A stretch of DNA of 64,000 nucleotides. It comes from Alphaproteobacteria bacterium (GTDB lineage: Bacteria; Pseudomonadota; Alphaproteobacteria; Acetobacterales; Acetobacteraceae). How positions within the stretch are numbered: position 1 is the first letter of the stretch; the number at the start of each line of letters is the position of its first letter. The DNA is taken from the NCBI GenBank assembly GCA_016869715.1, contig VGDM01000005.1, positions 1-64,000 on the forward strand, written 5' to 3'. Of the stretch, positions 25,927-32,935 are shown piece after piece. The translations under genes were made by a program, and so were the position numbers. Below the pieces are notes generated by a model that was given only the letters and a program-made list of their open reading frames with translations, did no database searches and was not told the origin of the DNA.

Positions 25927-27165
25927 TCAGCTCCGGTAATTGCCATTGATGTCGATATAGCCGTGCGTCAAGTCACAGGTCCAGATCGTGGATTTGCCCT
26001 TGCCGAGGCCGATATCAACGGTGATTTCCACTTCGCGCCCCTTCATGTGCTGCACAACGGGCGCTTCATCATAGCCATCCACCACGCCGCCATGGCGCGC
26101 CAACCAGACGCCGCCGACACTGAGCGAAAGCTTGTCGCGATCAGCCGGTTCGCCCGCCTTGCCAACGGCCATGACAATACGGCCCCAATTCGCGTCCTCA
26201 CCCGCAATTGCGGTCTTTACCAAAGGCGAATTGGCGATGGACATTGCAATGCGATGTGCCGAACGTGCCGTGGTCGCACCGGTCACGTTGATCTGGATCA
26301 GCTTCTGCGCGCCTTCACCATCACGCGCCACCATCAGCGCTAATTCCATCAGCACTTCATTCAAGGCGCGCGCAAAATCCTTGAGCACCGCGCCACCTTC
26401 CGCCGGCACGCGCGGATGCTTCGCCGTACCAGTCGCAAAAACCATCACCGTGTCGGAAGTGGAGGTATCAGAATCCACCGTCACGCAATTGAAGGAACGA
26501 TCAACGCCCTTCTTCAGCAAGGCTTGCAGGGCGCCGGTGGGGATTTTCGCATCCGTTGCCAGGAAGGACAGCATGGTCGCCATATCAGGCGCGATCATGC
26601 CGCTGCCCTTGGCGATGCCGGCGATGGTGACTTCTGCATCACCGATGCGCGCCTTGCGGATGGCGCCTTTCGGGAAGGTATCTGTGGTCATGATGGCCTT
26701 GGCCGCGCCCTGCCAATCGCGCTCGGCCGCCATATCAAAAATACGCGGCAGGGCAGCGATCAGCTTTTCGGTCGGCAGTTTCTCGCCAATCACGCCGGTG
26801 GAAGCCAGGAAAATCTCCTTGGGCTTGCACCCCAGAATCGCGGCGGCGACCTTGGCGGTTTCCTCGCAAGTTCGGCGCCCGGCGCGGCCGGTGAAGACGT
26901 TTGAATTGCCCGCCGTCACAACCAGGCCGCGCGCCTTGCCACCAGGCAGGGCGCCGCGGCACCAATCCACCGGGGCGCCGGGGCAGCGATTACGGGTGAA
27001 AACCCCGGCCACGGTGGTGCCGGCGGGGAAGGCCATCACGGTCACATCATCGCGATCCTTGTAGCGAATCGCCGCGCGGCCTGATGCCACGTGCACCCCA
27101 GTTACCGGCGGCATTTCCGGCAGGGGCAGGGCAAGCGGTGAGGTCGGGATATCATGTCGGGCCAT
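25927..27165 (-). CDS. argJ: Bifunctional glutamate N-acetyltransferase / ornithine acetyltransferase
   Basis: This 412-residue arginine-biosynthesis enzyme transfers acetyl from N-acetylornithine to glutamate, recycling acetyl groups. The precursor self-cleaves between Ala196 and Thr197 in KGSGMIAPDMATMLSF, with Thr197 becoming the nucleophile. C-terminal residues fit the family (THGYIDINGNYRS). I start at ATG 27165 (MARHDIPTSPL); the extra upstream codons lie inside repeat copy 2. It sits between prsA and the GNAT-Nudix gene and is flanked by oppositely oriented 44-nt repeats. Confidence 0.95.
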   Translation of the reverse strand: MARHDIPTSPLALPLPEMPPVTGVHVASGRAAIRYKDRDDVTVMAFPAGTTVAGVFTRNRCPGAPVDWCRGALPGGKARGLVVTAGNSNVFTGRAGRRTCEETAKVAAAILGCKPKEIFLASTGVIGEKLPTEKLIAALPRIFDMAAERDWQGAAKAIMTTDTFPKGAIRKARIGDAEVTIAGIAKGSGMIAPDMATMLSFLATDAKIPTGALQALLKKGVDRSFNCVTVDSDTSTSDTVMVFATGTAKHPRVPAEGGAVLKDFARALNEVLMELALMVARDGEGAQKLIQINVTGATTARSAHRIAMSIANSPLVKTAIAGEDANWGRIVMAVGKAGEPADRDKLSLSVGGVWLARHGGVVDGYDEAPVVQHMKGREVEITVDIGLGKGKSTIWTCDLTHGYIDINGNYRS

Positions 27166-27185
27166 GGGATTTCTCCGGGTTTTGA

Positions 27186-27229
27186 GCATTTTCAAGCCAA
27201 GTGGCTCCACTTGGCGACTCGGAAAACGC
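27186..27229 (+). repeat. 44-nt interrupted palindrome, copy 2
   Basis: Same element as at 25871 and 63443, in the orientation of copy 3. The outer right arm has one change (GAAAACGC). It begins 21 nt upstream of the argJ start, in the gap after prsA, so it would form a hairpin in the argJ leader if read through. Confidence 0.9.
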
Positions 27230-28396: not shown

Positions 28397-31126
28397 ATGT
28401 TTGCCCGCCTTGCAGCCGCCATTTTCGGCACCTCCAATGACCGGGCGCTCAAGCGCTACCAATCCCGCGTTCCCGCGATCAATGCGCTGGAAACCCGCCT
28501 GCAGGCGCTTTCGGATAAGGCGCTGGCGGGCCAGACCGCCTTGTTCCGCGAAAGGCTGGCCAAGGGGGAGACCCTGGACGCGCTGCTGCCGGAAGCCTTC
28601 GCAACGGTGCGAGAAGCGTCGCGGCGCGTGCTGGGCCTTCGCCATTTCGATGTGCAGATGATCGGCGGCATGGTGCTGCATGAAGGCAAGATCGCCGAAA
28701 TGAAGACCGGCGAAGGCAAGACGCTGGTGGCGACCCTGCCGGTTTATCTGAATGCGCTGCCCGCCAAGGGCATGCATGTGGTGACAGTGAATGATTATCT
28801 CGCGAAGCGCGACGCCGAATGGATGGGGCGCATCTATGGCTTTCTGGGGCTGACAGTTGGCGTGATCGTGCATGGCCTGACAGATGATCAGCGCCAGGCG
28901 GCCTATGCCTGCGATATCACCTACGGCACCAATAATGAATATGGCTTCGATTATCTGCGCGACAATATGAAGTATCGGCTGGAAGATATGGTCCAGCGCG
29001 AATTCGCCTATGCCATCGTGGACGAGGTTGACAGCATTCTGGTGGATGAGGCGCGCACGCCGCTGATCATCAGCGGGCCAACCGATGACACATCCGACCT
29101 TTACCGCCGCACCGATGAGGTGATGACGGAGTTGGTGAAGGACAAGGAAACCTATGAGAAGGACGAAAAGCAGCGCACCGTCAGCCTGACGGAATTGGGC
29201 GGCGAAAGGGTGGAAGAATTGCTCCGCCAATTCGGCTTGCTGACCGAAGGCAATATGTATGACATTGAAAACGTGTCCCTGGTACATCACGTGAACCAGG
29301 CCTTGCGGGCGCATACGCTCTTCACCCGCGATGTCGAATATATTGTCCGGCAGGACAAGATTGTGATCATTGATGAATTTACTGGTCGCATGATGGAAGG
29401 AAGGCGCTATTCCGATGGCTTGCATCAGGCGCTGGAAGCCAAGGAACATGTGACAGTTCAGCCGGAGAATCAGACGCTCGCTTCCATCACCTTCCAGAAT
29501 TACTTCCGCCTTTACCCGAAGCTTGCCGGCATGACCGGTACCGCGGCGACGGAAGCGGATGAATTCGCGGAAATCTACAAGCTAGATGTGGTGGAAATCC
29601 CGACCAATGTGCCGGTTGCGCGCAATGACCAGGATGATGAGGTTTATCGCAGCGCCGAAGAAAAATACGAAGCGGTGGCGAAGCTGATCGAAGAGGCCCG
29701 CGGGCGCGGCCAGCCCTGCCTGGTGGGCACCACAAGCATCGAGAAATCAGAACTCATTTCTGCTTTGCTCAAGAAGAAGAATGTCCCGCATCAGGTACTG
29801 AATGCGCGCTACCATGAACAGGAAGCGGAGATCGTGGCACAGGCGGGTCGTGCTGGCGCGGTGACGATTGCGACGAATATGGCAGGCCGCGGCACGGATA
29901 TTCAGCTGGGCGGCAATCTGGAAATGCTGGCGCGCCAGGAAGCCAATGCCATTGAAGGCCCTGAATATGAAGCAGCGCTGGCGCGCCACAAGGCCGAGGT
30001 GGATGAGGCGCGGCCCATCGTGCGCGCCGCCGGCGGGCTTTTCGTGATCGGTACGGAACGCCATGAAAGCCGGCGCATTGACAATCAGCTGCGTGGCCGT
30101 TCCGGCCGCCAGGGGGACCCCGGTGCCTCGCGCTTCTTCCTGTCCTTGGAAGATGATCTGATGCGTATCTTCGGGTCGGACCGCATGGGCGGGATGCTGC
30201 AAAAGCTCGGCCTGAAGGAAGGGGAGGCGATTGTGCATCCCTGGATCAACAAGGCACTGGAACGCGCGCAGAAAAAGGTGGAAGCGCGGAATTTCGACAT
30301 CCGCAAGAACCTTTTGAAATACGATGACGTGATGAATGACCAGCGCCGGGAAGTGTATGCCCAGCGCCGCGCCTTCATGATGGCGAATGAGGTTGCCGAA
30401 ACCATCACGGAAATGCGTGAGGAAACCATCACGGATATCGTGGCGCGCGCCATTCCGGAAAATGCCTATCCCGAGCAATGGGATCTGGAAAAGCTTGATC
30501 GTGACGTCAAGGATATCCTGAACCTTGATCAGCCGGTGGCGGATTGGGCGCGTGAAGAAGGCATTGATGATGATGCGGTGCGTGAACGCCTGATGCAGGC
30601 AGCGGCCCAGGCCTATGCGTCTCGTGCGGCCAATGTGGGGCCGGAGATCATCCGCCAGATCGAAAAATCCCTGCTGCTGCAGATTTTCGATCAATCCTGG
30701 AAGGAACATTTGCTTTCATTGGATCATTTGCGTCAGGGCATTGGGCTGCGTGCCTATGGTCAGCGCGATCCGCTGAATGAATACAAAAGCGAGGCCTTCC
30801 GCCTGTTCAATTCCATGCTGGAAAACCTGCGTGAACGCGTGACCAGCCTGCTGCTGCGCATTGAAATCCGCCCGGATGCGCCGCCACCCGCGCCGGAAGG
30901 CATTGGTGTGTTTGACATGCGCCACCCGGACCCGACGCTCGCGGGCGCTGAGATGATGGAAGTGGATGGCCCGCCCATTACGGCGCCAATCGGCACCGCA
31001 TCAGCGCGCGCCCTGCCTGAAGCGGTGGATCCGAATGACCCAAGCACCTGGGCCCGCACGCCGCGCAATGCGCCGTGTCCCTGTGGGAGCGGGAAGAAGT
31101 TCAAGGCTTGTCACGGGCGGGCTTGA
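28397..31126 (+). CDS. secA: Preprotein translocase ATPase SecA
   Basis: This 909-residue motor drives proteins through SecYEG. Walker A is [14 protein letters not shown] at residues 102-115, and the DEAD-like box is [20 protein letters not shown]. The second helicase half has [16 protein letters not shown] and [13 protein letters not shown]. The C-terminal zinc site [16 protein letters not shown] binds SecB and phospholipid. The whole family architecture is present. It is divergent from the parvulin gene; the gap must hold both promoters. Confidence 0.98.
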
Positions 31127-31158
31127 ATGCCCATGCCGCGCTTGGCCGCAAATCCGCG

Positions 31159-31188
31159 TTGACAGGCCTTCAGCCGTAACACTAGGCT
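31159..31188 (+). promoter_or_regulatory. Sigma70-like promoter of the arginine leader
   Basis: TTGACA (31159-31164) and TAGGCT (31183-31188) are separated by 18 nt. Transcription would start about seven bases further on, at or next to the A of the leader ATG (31196), giving a leaderless message. The -35 is a consensus match; the -10 is weaker. Confidence 0.6.
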
Positions 31189-31195
31189 TTGTTCC

Positions 31196-31306
31196 ATGAC
31201 CGGGTTTTGCCGCCGCATCGCCAACCGACGCCGTCGCTGCTTTTCAGCGGCGGCTTTCGTGGCTGCGTGCAGACAAGCCCCTCCCAAAGTGAGGTCCGCC
31301 CCGTAG
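31196..31306 (+). CDS. Arginine-rich leader peptide (putative attenuator)
   Basis: This 36-codon ORF begins MTGFCRRIANRRRRC. Six of its first 14 codons are Arg, including CGA-CGC-CGT-CGC in a row at codons 11-14. It starts at or beside the predicted transcription start, with no Shine-Dalgarno, as known for the leaderless trpL of Sinorhizobium. The Arg codons form the 5' arm of a 10-bp hairpin. A strong intrinsic terminator lies 38 nt after its TAG, before the GNAT-argC pair. This is the classic layout of ribosome-mediated transcription attenuation, here apparently sensing charged tRNA-Arg. Function is inferred. Confidence 0.6.
   Translation: MTGFCRRIANRRRRCFSAAAFVAACRQAPPKVRSAP
31230..31254 (+). 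promoter_or_regulatory. Pause-type hairpin over the leader arginine codons
   Basis: GCCGTCGCTG (31230-31239) pairs with CAGCGGCGGC (31245-31254), including one G-U pair, around a CTTTT loop. It covers Arg codons 12-14 of the leader ORF, so a ribosome stalled there would open it. Downstream GGCTGCG (31261-31267) is complementary to CGCAGCC (31351-31357) in the terminator arm and could be an antiterminator strand. Confidence 0.55.
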
Positions 31307-31344
31307 CGGCCCACTACCTGAGGCGGCATCAGCCCGCATCTTTG

Positions 31345-31380
31345 AACCCCCGCAGCCCCTGGCTCTCGGGGGTTTTTCTT
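31345..31380 (+). terminator. Attenuator terminator before GNAT-argC
   Basis: AACCCCCG (31345-31352) pairs with CGGGGGTT (31367-31374), with an inner AGCC/GGCT stem and a T-rich tail (TTTTTCTTT). It is one of the best intrinsic terminators in the window, yet stands 24 nt before the next start codon, after only a 36-codon ORF. That position fits conditional termination. Confidence 0.8.
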
Positions 31381-31403
31381 TGACCAACTCAAGGGAGCAT
31401 CAC

Positions 31404-31961
31404 ATGCAGAATGGCAACGCCACCCAACCCGATGCGTCACAAGTATCTAAGGGTGCCGGAGAGAAAGCGTTGCGGCGCGCCACCACCGCTGATGTGGCGA
31501 CCATCCGCGACCTGACCCGCGCAGCCTATGCGAAATGGGTGCCGCTCCTTGGACGGGAGTCGCGACCGATGACCGCCGACTATGAAGCGGCAATACGCAA
31601 CCATCTGATAGACCTGCTGCGCATGGATGGAGAGGCGGCGGCGCTGATTGAGATGGTGCCTAGCGTTGATCACCTGCTGATCGTCAACATCGCCGTCGCG
31701 CCCGGGCATCGAGGCCGTGGTTTCGGCCGCGTGCTGATGGCGCATGCTGAAGACGTCGCCCGCTCCCTCAATCTGAGCGAGATGCGGCTCTACACCAATG
31801 CGCTGTTTGCCGAGAATATTCGATTTTACGGCAGGCTCGGCTATCGGGTGGATCGTGAGGAAGAGCACGTGCAGTTCGGCGTGACTGTGTACATGAGCAA
31901 GCGTCTCGATAATGCCGATGCAGCAGCCAAAGACCACTCCAGCAGCAGGACATCGCCATGA
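31404..31961 (+). CDS. GNAT-family N-acetyltransferase
   Basis: This 185-residue single GNAT domain has the acetyl-CoA pyrophosphate loop VAPGHRGRGFGRVLMAHAED and the C-terminal RFYGRLGYRVDREE. I start at ATG 31404 because AAGGGAG lies six bases upstream; the TTG at 31380 is still inside the terminator tail. It overlaps argC by 4 bp (ATGA), so the pair is translationally coupled. With argC it may acetylate an amino acid or carrier-linked substrate, but small-molecule versus protein target cannot be told. Confidence 0.88.
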   Translation: MQNGNATQPDASQVSKGAGEKALRRATTADVATIRDLTRAAYAKWVPLLGRESRPMTADYEAAIRNHLIDLLRMDGEAAALIEMVPSVDHLLIVNIAVAPGHRGRGFGRVLMAHAEDVARSLNLSEMRLYTNALFAENIRFYGRLGYRVDREEEHVQFGVTVYMSKRLDNADAAAKDHSSSRTSP

Positions 31962-32935
31962 GCATTCGTATTGGCATTGTTGGCATCAGCGGTTTTGGCG
32001 GCGGCGAGGCGATGCGCCTGGTCGCAAACCACCCGTCTTTCGAACTGGTCTACGCCGCAGGTGAGGGCAGCGCCGGCAGCCGGCTTGTGGACCGCTTCCC
32101 CGGTACACCGGCCAAGCTCGCTGATCTGGTCATCGAGAAATGGGATGCGGGGAAGTTGCCAAAGCTTGATGTGCTGTTTGCGTCGCTGCCCACGGGCAGC
32201 TCGGCCGAGGCATTGGCGCGCATCTCCAAGGACGTAAAGATCATCGATATCGGCGGCGATCATCGCTACGTCAAAGGTTGGGCCTATGGCCTGGCCGATG
32301 TCTGGCCGATACAGATCGAGGGTCAGAACCGCATTGCCAATCCCGGTTGTTTTCCGGCGGCGGCGCTGACAGCGCTTGCGCCCTTGCTGGCCAATAAGTT
32401 GATCGACCCCGGCAATATCGTGATTGACGCCAAGAAGTGTATCTCCGGCGCTGGTCGTGGTGGCGGCGACAGCAAATTTGGTTACGTTGAAAGCAATGAG
32501 AATCTGGTGCCCTATGGGCTGCTCAAGCATACCCACATGCCCGAGATGGCCAGAACGATTGAGGAGCTGCGCGGCAGCGCTGCAACGGGGCTGGTGTTTA
32601 CGCCACATTTGGTGCCTATGACCCGTGGCATACTGACAACCATCTACTGTCGTGGCCGCGCAACGACCGGCGACTGCCTGGACGCGGCGCGGCGCTTCTA
32701 CGCCGCGCGGGCTTTTGTGCGTGTAACCGATCAGCCTCCGCAGACCAAATGGGCCACTGGTTCCAACCTTGCATTCGTCAGCTATGCAGCGGATCCAGGG
32801 CGCAATCTGGTGATCGCGATGGGCGTGGTTGATAATCTTGGCAAAGGCGCCGCAGGCCAGGCAGTACAGAATGCCAACCTGATCTGCGGCCTACCAGAGA
32901 CTGCGGGGCTGGATGTTGTGCCTGTTTGGCCGTGA
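31958..32935 (+). CDS. argC: N-acetyl-gamma-glutamyl-phosphate reductase
   Basis: This 325-residue NADPH-dependent reductase makes N-acetylglutamate semialdehyde. The nucleotide-binding start is GIVGISGFGGGEAMRLV, the catalytic Cys is in IANPGCFPAAALTAL, and the partner His is in LLKHTHMPEM. It is coupled to a GNAT gene and follows the arginine-codon leader, which supports an arginine-related or arginine-responsive role. Codon choice looks less skewed than in neighbours, so it may be an acquired second argC. Other arg genes lie elsewhere except argJ at 26 kb. Confidence 0.9.
   Translation: MSIRIGIVGISGFGGGEAMRLVANHPSFELVYAAGEGSAGSRLVDRFPGTPAKLADLVIEKWDAGKLPKLDVLFASLPTGSSAEALARISKDVKIIDIGGDHRYVKGWAYGLADVWPIQIEGQNRIANPGCFPAAALTALAPLLANKLIDPGNIVIDAKKCISGAGRGGGDSKFGYVESNENLVPYGLLKHTHMPEMARTIEELRGSAATGLVFTPHLVPMTRGILTTIYCRGRATTGDCLDAARRFYAARAFVRVTDQPPQTKWATGSNLAFVSYAADPGRNLVIAMGVVDNLGKGAAGQAVQNANLICGLPETAGLDVVPVWP

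Follow-up and report, generated by a model that had tools for sequence, protein, structure and literature searches.

The window analysed here is a stretch of 64,000 nucleotides from a 3.5-Mb alphaproteobacterial genome (G000), whose closest named relatives in our searches were genomes of Roseomonas and Falsiroseomonas. Next to secA it carries a short leader region followed by two overlapping genes, a GNAT acetyltransferase and an argC that we call argC2 (Table 1). An earlier note on this DNA had described a promoter, an ATG and a 36-codon ORF with six Arg codons among its first 14, four of them consecutive, which direct reading confirmed (codons 6, 7 and 11–14). The spacer between TTGACA and TAGGCT is 18 nt, a gap of 7 nt separates TAGGCT from the ATG, and the ATG at 31196 lies 37 nt after TTGAC. 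The Arg codons do sit in one arm of a 10-bp hairpin, as had been claimed, and a terminator does stand past the leader stop codon and before GNAT-argC, starting 37 nt after the stop. The 191-nt leader folds with a z-score of −4.62, and none of 200 shuffles was equally stable. A strict sigma-70 consensus scan of the leader region did not list the promoter, and the case for it therefore rests on conservation; the same scan listed one terminator, against an average of 0.4 in shuffles. A search of Rfam with positions 31000–31500 found no family match, be it to a T-box, a riboswitch or a known leader, its five matches up to E 5 (best E 1.4) all lying far below the gathering score.

Table 1. Features of the leader region and its neighbours, with positions in the window
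Feature	Position	Strand	Remarks
secA	28397–31126		Upstream neighbour of the leader region
−35 element TTGACA	31159–31164	+	Read in the sequence; TTGAC kept in 60/60 leaders
−10-like element TAGGCT	31183–31188	+	Read in the sequence; lies in a conserved region when 27 leaders are aligned
Leader peptide ORF, 36 codons	31196–31306	+	Predicted product MTGFCRRIANRRRRCFSAAAFVAACRQAPPKVRSAP; stop codon 31304–31306
Arg run CGA CGC CGT CGC, codons 11–14	31226–31237	+	Putative regulatory codons; 5′ part of segment 1
Hairpin 1:2, 10 bp (one U-G)	31230–31254	+	Outer extension 31214–31267
Segment 2, GCGGCGGCTTT	31247–31257	+	Serves as 3′ arm in the Arg hairpin and as 5′ arm in the proposed antiterminator
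Intermediate helix, 5′ arm	31264–31270	+	Pairs with 31332–31338
Intermediate helix, 3′ arm	31332–31338	+	Pairs with 31264–31270
Segment 3, GAACCCCCGC	31344–31353	+	5′ arm of the terminator; 3′ arm of the proposed antiterminator
Intrinsic terminator 3:4	31344–31378 (hairpin 31344–31375)	+	T-run 31373–31377
GNAT acetyltransferase (PF00583)	31404–31961	+	Candidate arginine-pathway acetyltransferase; adjoins argC genes
argC2	31958–32935	+	TIGR01850, 279 bits vs cut-off 233.6; N-acetyl-gamma-glutamyl-phosphate reductase

That an argC lies downstream held as far as arginine synthesis is concerned, but the gene is a second paralogue and not the housekeeping copy: another argC, about 30% identical to argC2, sits after rplM-rpsI in the same genome (L185, L186), and it is presumably this one that does the housekeeping. 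Two contigs of G000 (C8 and C89) carry near-identical rplM-rpsI-argC stretches, and the listed contamination of the assembly is 5.08%; the twin contigs suggest a mixed-strain bin. Elsewhere in the window, on the minus strand at 25927–27210, lies a gene for a bifunctional ArgJ. As for GNAT, it reached no cut-off against the curated NCBIfam models, and its structure predicted from the single sequence was poor (mean pLDDT 55) and is given no weight. We scanned 61 GNAT loci, that is, 80 minus the 18 already in the leader alignment and L079, which has too little upstream sequence. In nine of them, several from Reyranella, a housekeeping-type argC ends just before the GNAT gene (L045, L051, L072, L075, L080, L083, L084, L098 and L104), as it also does at L247. 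This adjacency supports a role for GNAT in arginine synthesis, possibly in the synthesis of N-acetylglutamate. The GNAT gene recurs near argC in two ways, either behind the putative attenuator or directly behind the other type of argC. No ArgR C-terminal domain (PF02863) was found in 59 genomes; the control was positive in 8 of 14.

By blastn, run over 59 genomes, the leader occurs in 20, all of them among the 35 of the same genus (0 of the 24 others). The gene argC2 is likewise present in 20 of the 35 and both together in 19, the two mismatches being G002, with the leader on a contig that ends, and G027, with a partial argC2. A covariance model (R1) built on 26 leaders was run over 395 genomes of the order, with a cut at E≤2.2e-6 placed just above the first match lacking a leader (L154, E 2.7e-6). 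It gave 51 matches, in which the next gene is argC2 (31) or GNAT (19) and one runs into a contig edge; 18 of these coincide exactly with sequences used to train the model, and among the other 33 argC2 or GNAT comes next in 32. Down to E 1e-8 there are 48 matches in 44 genomes with 13 genus labels (hand count). The tally at E≤0.01 (82 of 395 genomes) is not taken as a leader count, because the cut lies just above that first match without a leader. Of a further 20 stretches, two are housekeeping argC loci and 18 are weak matches, 13 of which were inspected for a leader: L189 (before GNAT) and L199 (before argD) have the full anatomy and 11 look like chance. In the weak-match stretches L194, L196, L197, L203 and L204 neither argC nor GNAT was found. 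Across the class, R1 matched 10 of 385 genomes at E≤0.001, the own genome included, and argC2 was present in 3 of 318, again with the own genome (E≤1e-120). Inspection of ten other class matches showed leaders before argC2 in L205 and L206 and a remnant in L214; the remaining seven look like chance. In the remnant (L214 1501–1682, genome G755) a leader-like hairpin leads directly into a fragment of argC from its C-terminal end, as though the two had been fused by an internal deletion.

Sixty leaders were aligned (A3), leaving out L021 (shifted start), L144 (contig end) and L154, as well as L039 and L134, which are the same leaders as L145 and L037. TTGAC precedes the aligned start by 35, 36, 37 or 38 nt in 2, 10, 45 and 3 rows, hence in all 60. 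The start codon is ATG in 57, GTG in two and AGG in one (L140), and in none of the 60 does an SD-like 4-mer precede it. With a normal promoter such a spacing would place the start of transcription at the start codon, and the ORF is thus probably leaderless, transcription beginning at the ATG or within about 2 nt. The consensus-like promoter of the earlier note is in this regard upheld by its spacing in every aligned leader, although it escapes the strict scan.

Codons for the amino acid of the pathway are clustered in 59 of the 60 aligned leaders, which have at least three consecutive Arg codons; the longest run is 5 in 10 rows, 4 in 46, 3 in 3 and 2 in a single one (L015), with a minimum of 4 Arg within the first 20 codons and a peptide length of 30–41 codons. 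Conserved Arg codons in relatives upstream of argC were what the earlier note had named as support. The pattern that it considered contrary, an ORF or Arg codons lost while the terminator is kept, is absent from those same 59, the exceptions being L015 and, outside the alignment, the decayed leader L267. In columns 31–45, which hold the Arg run and the next codon, differences from the consensus fall on the three codon positions as 12, 5 and 48. The third position of codon 13 is T in 43 rows, C in 12 and A in 5, and in the rows with A a stem pair is broken and Arg is kept, the pair being intact in the other 55. Judged by such substitution patterns, the leader ORF is coding. Its N-terminal part varies in length by three bases in some genera, a difference that leaves the Arg run in frame. 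In the columns past the hairpin (46–87) all three codon positions share the differences (161, 131 and 160), so that coding is not evident there by this measure. By column, 48 of 60 leaders open the run with CGA, a codon rare in the window (8 of 282 Arg codons in eight ORFs). Two rare Arg codons, CGA (31226–31228) and AGA (31271–31273, codon 26), are conserved, while CGC dominates the window.

Without a ribosome, the predicted fold of the full RNA has an intermediate structure in addition to hairpin 1:2 and the terminator. A ribosome on the Arg run was represented by RNA accessible only from about segment 2; with this RNA ending before arm 4, segment 2 pairs with segment 3 in the consensus fold, and this pairing stacks on the intermediate helix. 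The mutually exclusive 1:2, 2:3 and 3:4 pairings, with the regulatory codons in segment 1, are all present in the predictions. Over the 60 rows, 94.6% of the cells of antiterminator and intermediate helix are paired (93.9% and 95.8%, respectively), in comparison with 35–66% when slid; the figures for the terminator and the extended 1:2 helix are 97.6% and 83.9%. Of the 60 rows, 47 show a gain of more than 0.2 in the predicted pairing of segment 3 with upstream RNA upon stalling; for dinucleotide shuffles of the region the share is 9.6%. At equilibrium the complete leader, stalled or unstalled, still mostly favours the terminator, which means that the switch needs co-transcriptional kinetics. 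Compensatory hairpin changes had been proposed as a check in the earlier note. Cells changed on both sides outnumber those of all 500 shuffles for 1:2 and for 2:3 with the intermediate helix, shuffles that ignore relatedness, but the number of pairs changed on both sides is not above the shuffles (390 of 500 as high for 1:2, 91 of 500 for antiterminator plus intermediate helix). Of 500 shuffles, 51 reached the covariation score of the terminator. The strong conservation of the leader sequence keeps covariation modest.

The anatomy, the conservation, the linkage to arginine genes and the alternative pairings are all supported by computation, and the comparison backs what the earlier note had put forward, an Arg-codon, ribosome-mediated terminator switch ahead of arginine genes. 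Such a leader is very probably a transcription attenuator sensing charged Arg-tRNA. We infer a transcription start at the ATG or directly beside it, and translation of the leader as a leaderless mRNA. With plentiful Arg-tRNA the ribosome would pass the four Arg codons, hairpin 1:2 would re-form behind it and the terminator 3:4 would halt transcription before GNAT-argC2, both genes presumably encoding enzymes of arginine synthesis. With scarce Arg-tRNA it would stall on the run and cover segment 1, leaving segment 2, together with the intermediate helix, to pair with segment 3 before segment 4 is made; no terminator would then form and GNAT-argC2 would be transcribed.

Leaders of very different sequence were found at other loci. 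An architecture rule (TTGAC, a start codon at a distance of 34–39 nt, RRR within the ORF, and a T-run) was satisfied upstream of more distant GNAT relatives in 6 of the 61 loci, against 0 of 1476 control stretches, nine of which showed the promoter and an Arg ORF without the T-run. The six are L061, L065 (Stella), L070 (Enhydrobacter), L092 (Siccirubricoccus) and, in Mesorhizobium, L100 and L101. The rule dates from after these six had been selected by eye out of 21 loci whose small ORFs are rich in Arg, in sequences where promoter and terminator could be seen; for the six, therefore, the folding test counts as an independent check but the promoter spacing does not. L255 is a seventh GNAT locus with this architecture, and L055 (Roseococcus) has no TTGAC at the expected distance. 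The class relatives of GNAT, 16 loci besides the window, added leaders in L246 (with the same upstream sequence as L065) and in L255. Among 31 loci inspected upstream of argD (30 of 121 matches, and L199), leaders occur only in L199 and L215. At L199 (225–1593) and at L215 it is an Arg-run leader with a terminator that precedes argD, and the genome of L215 (G116) has two argD copies, the second being C91. The downstream gene thus falls in the pathway of the sensed amino acid, be it argC2, the argC-linked GNAT or argD. In nine of ten diverged leaders TTGAC lies 35–36 nt before the ATG, and seven of the ten show the stall-dependent gain, compared with 20.8% of shuffles. The opposite behaviour was seen in L061 and L065, where stalling at a single position lowers the pairing of segment 3, and L055 gains only 0.07. 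At other stall positions L065 reaches 0.77 vs 0.50 unstalled, and L061 stays level (0.45 vs 0.48).

Matches to argC2 were also found on plasmids, in nine records, six with most of the gene and three with 87 bases only. The leader accompanies it on plasmids from Roseomonas haemaphysalidis (L262) and, with TTGAC preceding the ATG by 37 nt, from Methylobacterium aquaticum (L263). On the Ti plasmid of Agrobacterium leguminum (L267, 2814–2891) a degenerate leader keeps the terminator with an Arg run of two and the hairpin lost. No leader was seen before argC2 in the plasmid records of Paracoccus (L264, L265) and Paraburkholderia (L266), nor at the class copy L269. These copies without leader tie the leader to one branch of argC2 carriers and not to the gene everywhere. 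The patchy occurrence of argC2 (20 of 35 genus genomes) and its plasmid copies suggest that it was gained by transfer. Altogether, a ribosome-mediated arginine attenuator that is leaderless by all sequence signs, conserved and transferable appears well supported by the sequence comparisons.

Other explanations share part of this evidence. The closest keeps the attenuator with the antiterminator proposed in the earlier note, GGCTGCG (31261–31267) paired with CGCAGCC (31351–31357). The two segments are complementary and both highly conserved in an alignment of 27 leaders, they are paired by RNAalifold in the unstalled leader when it ends before arm 4, and, with the same end and without a ribosome, their pairing probability exceeds 0.5 in two of the 27 leaders (L011 and L021). 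Computed for the 27 leaders, however, this 7-nt antiterminator is not favoured when the ribosome is stalled, exceeding 0.5 before arm 4 in only one (L037); its probability is 0.00 for the window in every computed state, the pairing is absent in L040, and the intermediate helix makes better use of most of GGCTGCG. The complementarity thus stands, but the pairing of segments 2 and 3 explains the switch better and the 7-nt version is unlikely. The peptide itself might also be the sensor: as a nascent chain in the exit tunnel it would arrest in response to free arginine, to some other ligand or to a ribosome inhibitor, and not to uncharged tRNA at the Arg codons. Past the Arg run the peptide is conserved within the family as AAAxxAACRQAP, and the conservation of Ala-Ala-Cys-Arg-Gln-Ala-Pro goes beyond what the attenuator model requires, a point against it. 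Nevertheless, these codons overlap segment 2 and the intermediate helix at the RNA level, and what the diverged leaders have in common is the Arg run, not this stretch in its entirety, which makes arrest a quite improbable account.

GC-rich stems easily yield CGN codons, and the Arg reading could in principle arise by chance in a GC-rich hairpin beside a constitutive terminator. We find this hardly credible: third-position changes keep Arg, some of them breaking the stem; the distance from promoter to start is fixed in 60 of 60 leaders; the anatomy recurs with a different sequence before GNAT and argD; and arginine genes follow in 50 of 51 matches. It could also be that the terminated leader serves mainly as a trans-acting sRNA or small-protein mRNA, control of GNAT-argC2 being secondary, for which the rnTrpL of Sinorhizobium offers a precedent (PMC7298713). 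Within one family the RNA is indeed highly conserved over its whole length, with a mean column identity of 73% in the 60 rows, but the leader is coupled to argC2 or GNAT in those same 50 of 51 cases and the diverged leaders retain little beyond the features of an attenuator, so that a mainly trans-acting role is very unlikely. The reading that we prefer to all of these is the Arg-tRNA attenuator with the 2:3 antiterminator.

Amino acids with well-known attenuators include Trp, His, Leu/Ile/Val, Thr and Phe. In eukaryotes, the arginine attenuator peptide (AAP) is an arginine-responsive leader peptide of an arginine pathway gene, as the one described here would be, but it is a fungal nascent peptide that arrests the ribosome in a translational control and is not known to involve a codon run or a transcription terminator. 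T-boxes, for their part, bind uncharged tRNA directly and are not known to involve a leader peptide. Among the matches listed in the open-access literature, judged by title and the start of the abstract, none was a bacterial arginine attenuator of this kind. According to two reports, rnTrpL of Sinorhizobium meliloti begins with the AUG of trpL (PMC10117765, PMC7298713), and as described there it is also an alphaproteobacterial ribosome-mediated attenuator with pathway codons and a terminator before a biosynthetic gene. The leader described here differs in having Arg instead of Trp codons, 30–41 codons instead of 14, and different genes; the 5′ end at the AUG, known for rnTrpL, is here predicted from the spacing and the lack of an SD-like 4-mer. 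In uORFC-8-2 of Rhodobacterales, another alphaproteobacterial case, an intrinsic terminator likewise follows a uORF whose tandem regulatory codons are conserved; it differs in its Cys codons and in preceding cysS, an aminoacyl-tRNA synthetase gene (PMC8632094). In Salmonella orf34-speF, two consecutive Arg codons of a leader ORF sense arginine by ribosome pausing; the gene encodes an ornithine decarboxylase, and control involves Rho-dependent termination, a structure inhibiting the speF ribosome-binding site and RNase G, in place of the intrinsic terminator that stands before arginine biosynthesis genes here (PMC6386406). The T-boxes of arginine genes in other bacteria are similar as RNA-level control by amino acid supply, and in the section of the source consulted arginine appears only under T-boxes, with His, Thr and Phe under attenuators (PMC1262725).

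A broader reading, which we hold tentatively and with somewhat more doubt than belief, is that of a mobile, Arg-gated backup kit. In alphaproteobacteria without ArgR, a leaderless Arg attenuator would sit on an accessory argC2 or second argD and on GNAT, which may be a stand-alone N-acetylglutamate synthase, and would switch on this second branch only when Arg-tRNA runs short, for instance under arginine antimetabolites, the control having been kept or rebuilt with very different sequences in several orders. The diverged leaders permit direct tests of which features are important. If the attenuator is real, it would provide a control route for arginine genes in some alphaproteobacteria with no detectable ArgR and a second type of leaderless attenuator; moreover, it would place a GNAT of unassigned role in the arginine pathway and make a compact sensor of Arg-tRNA available.
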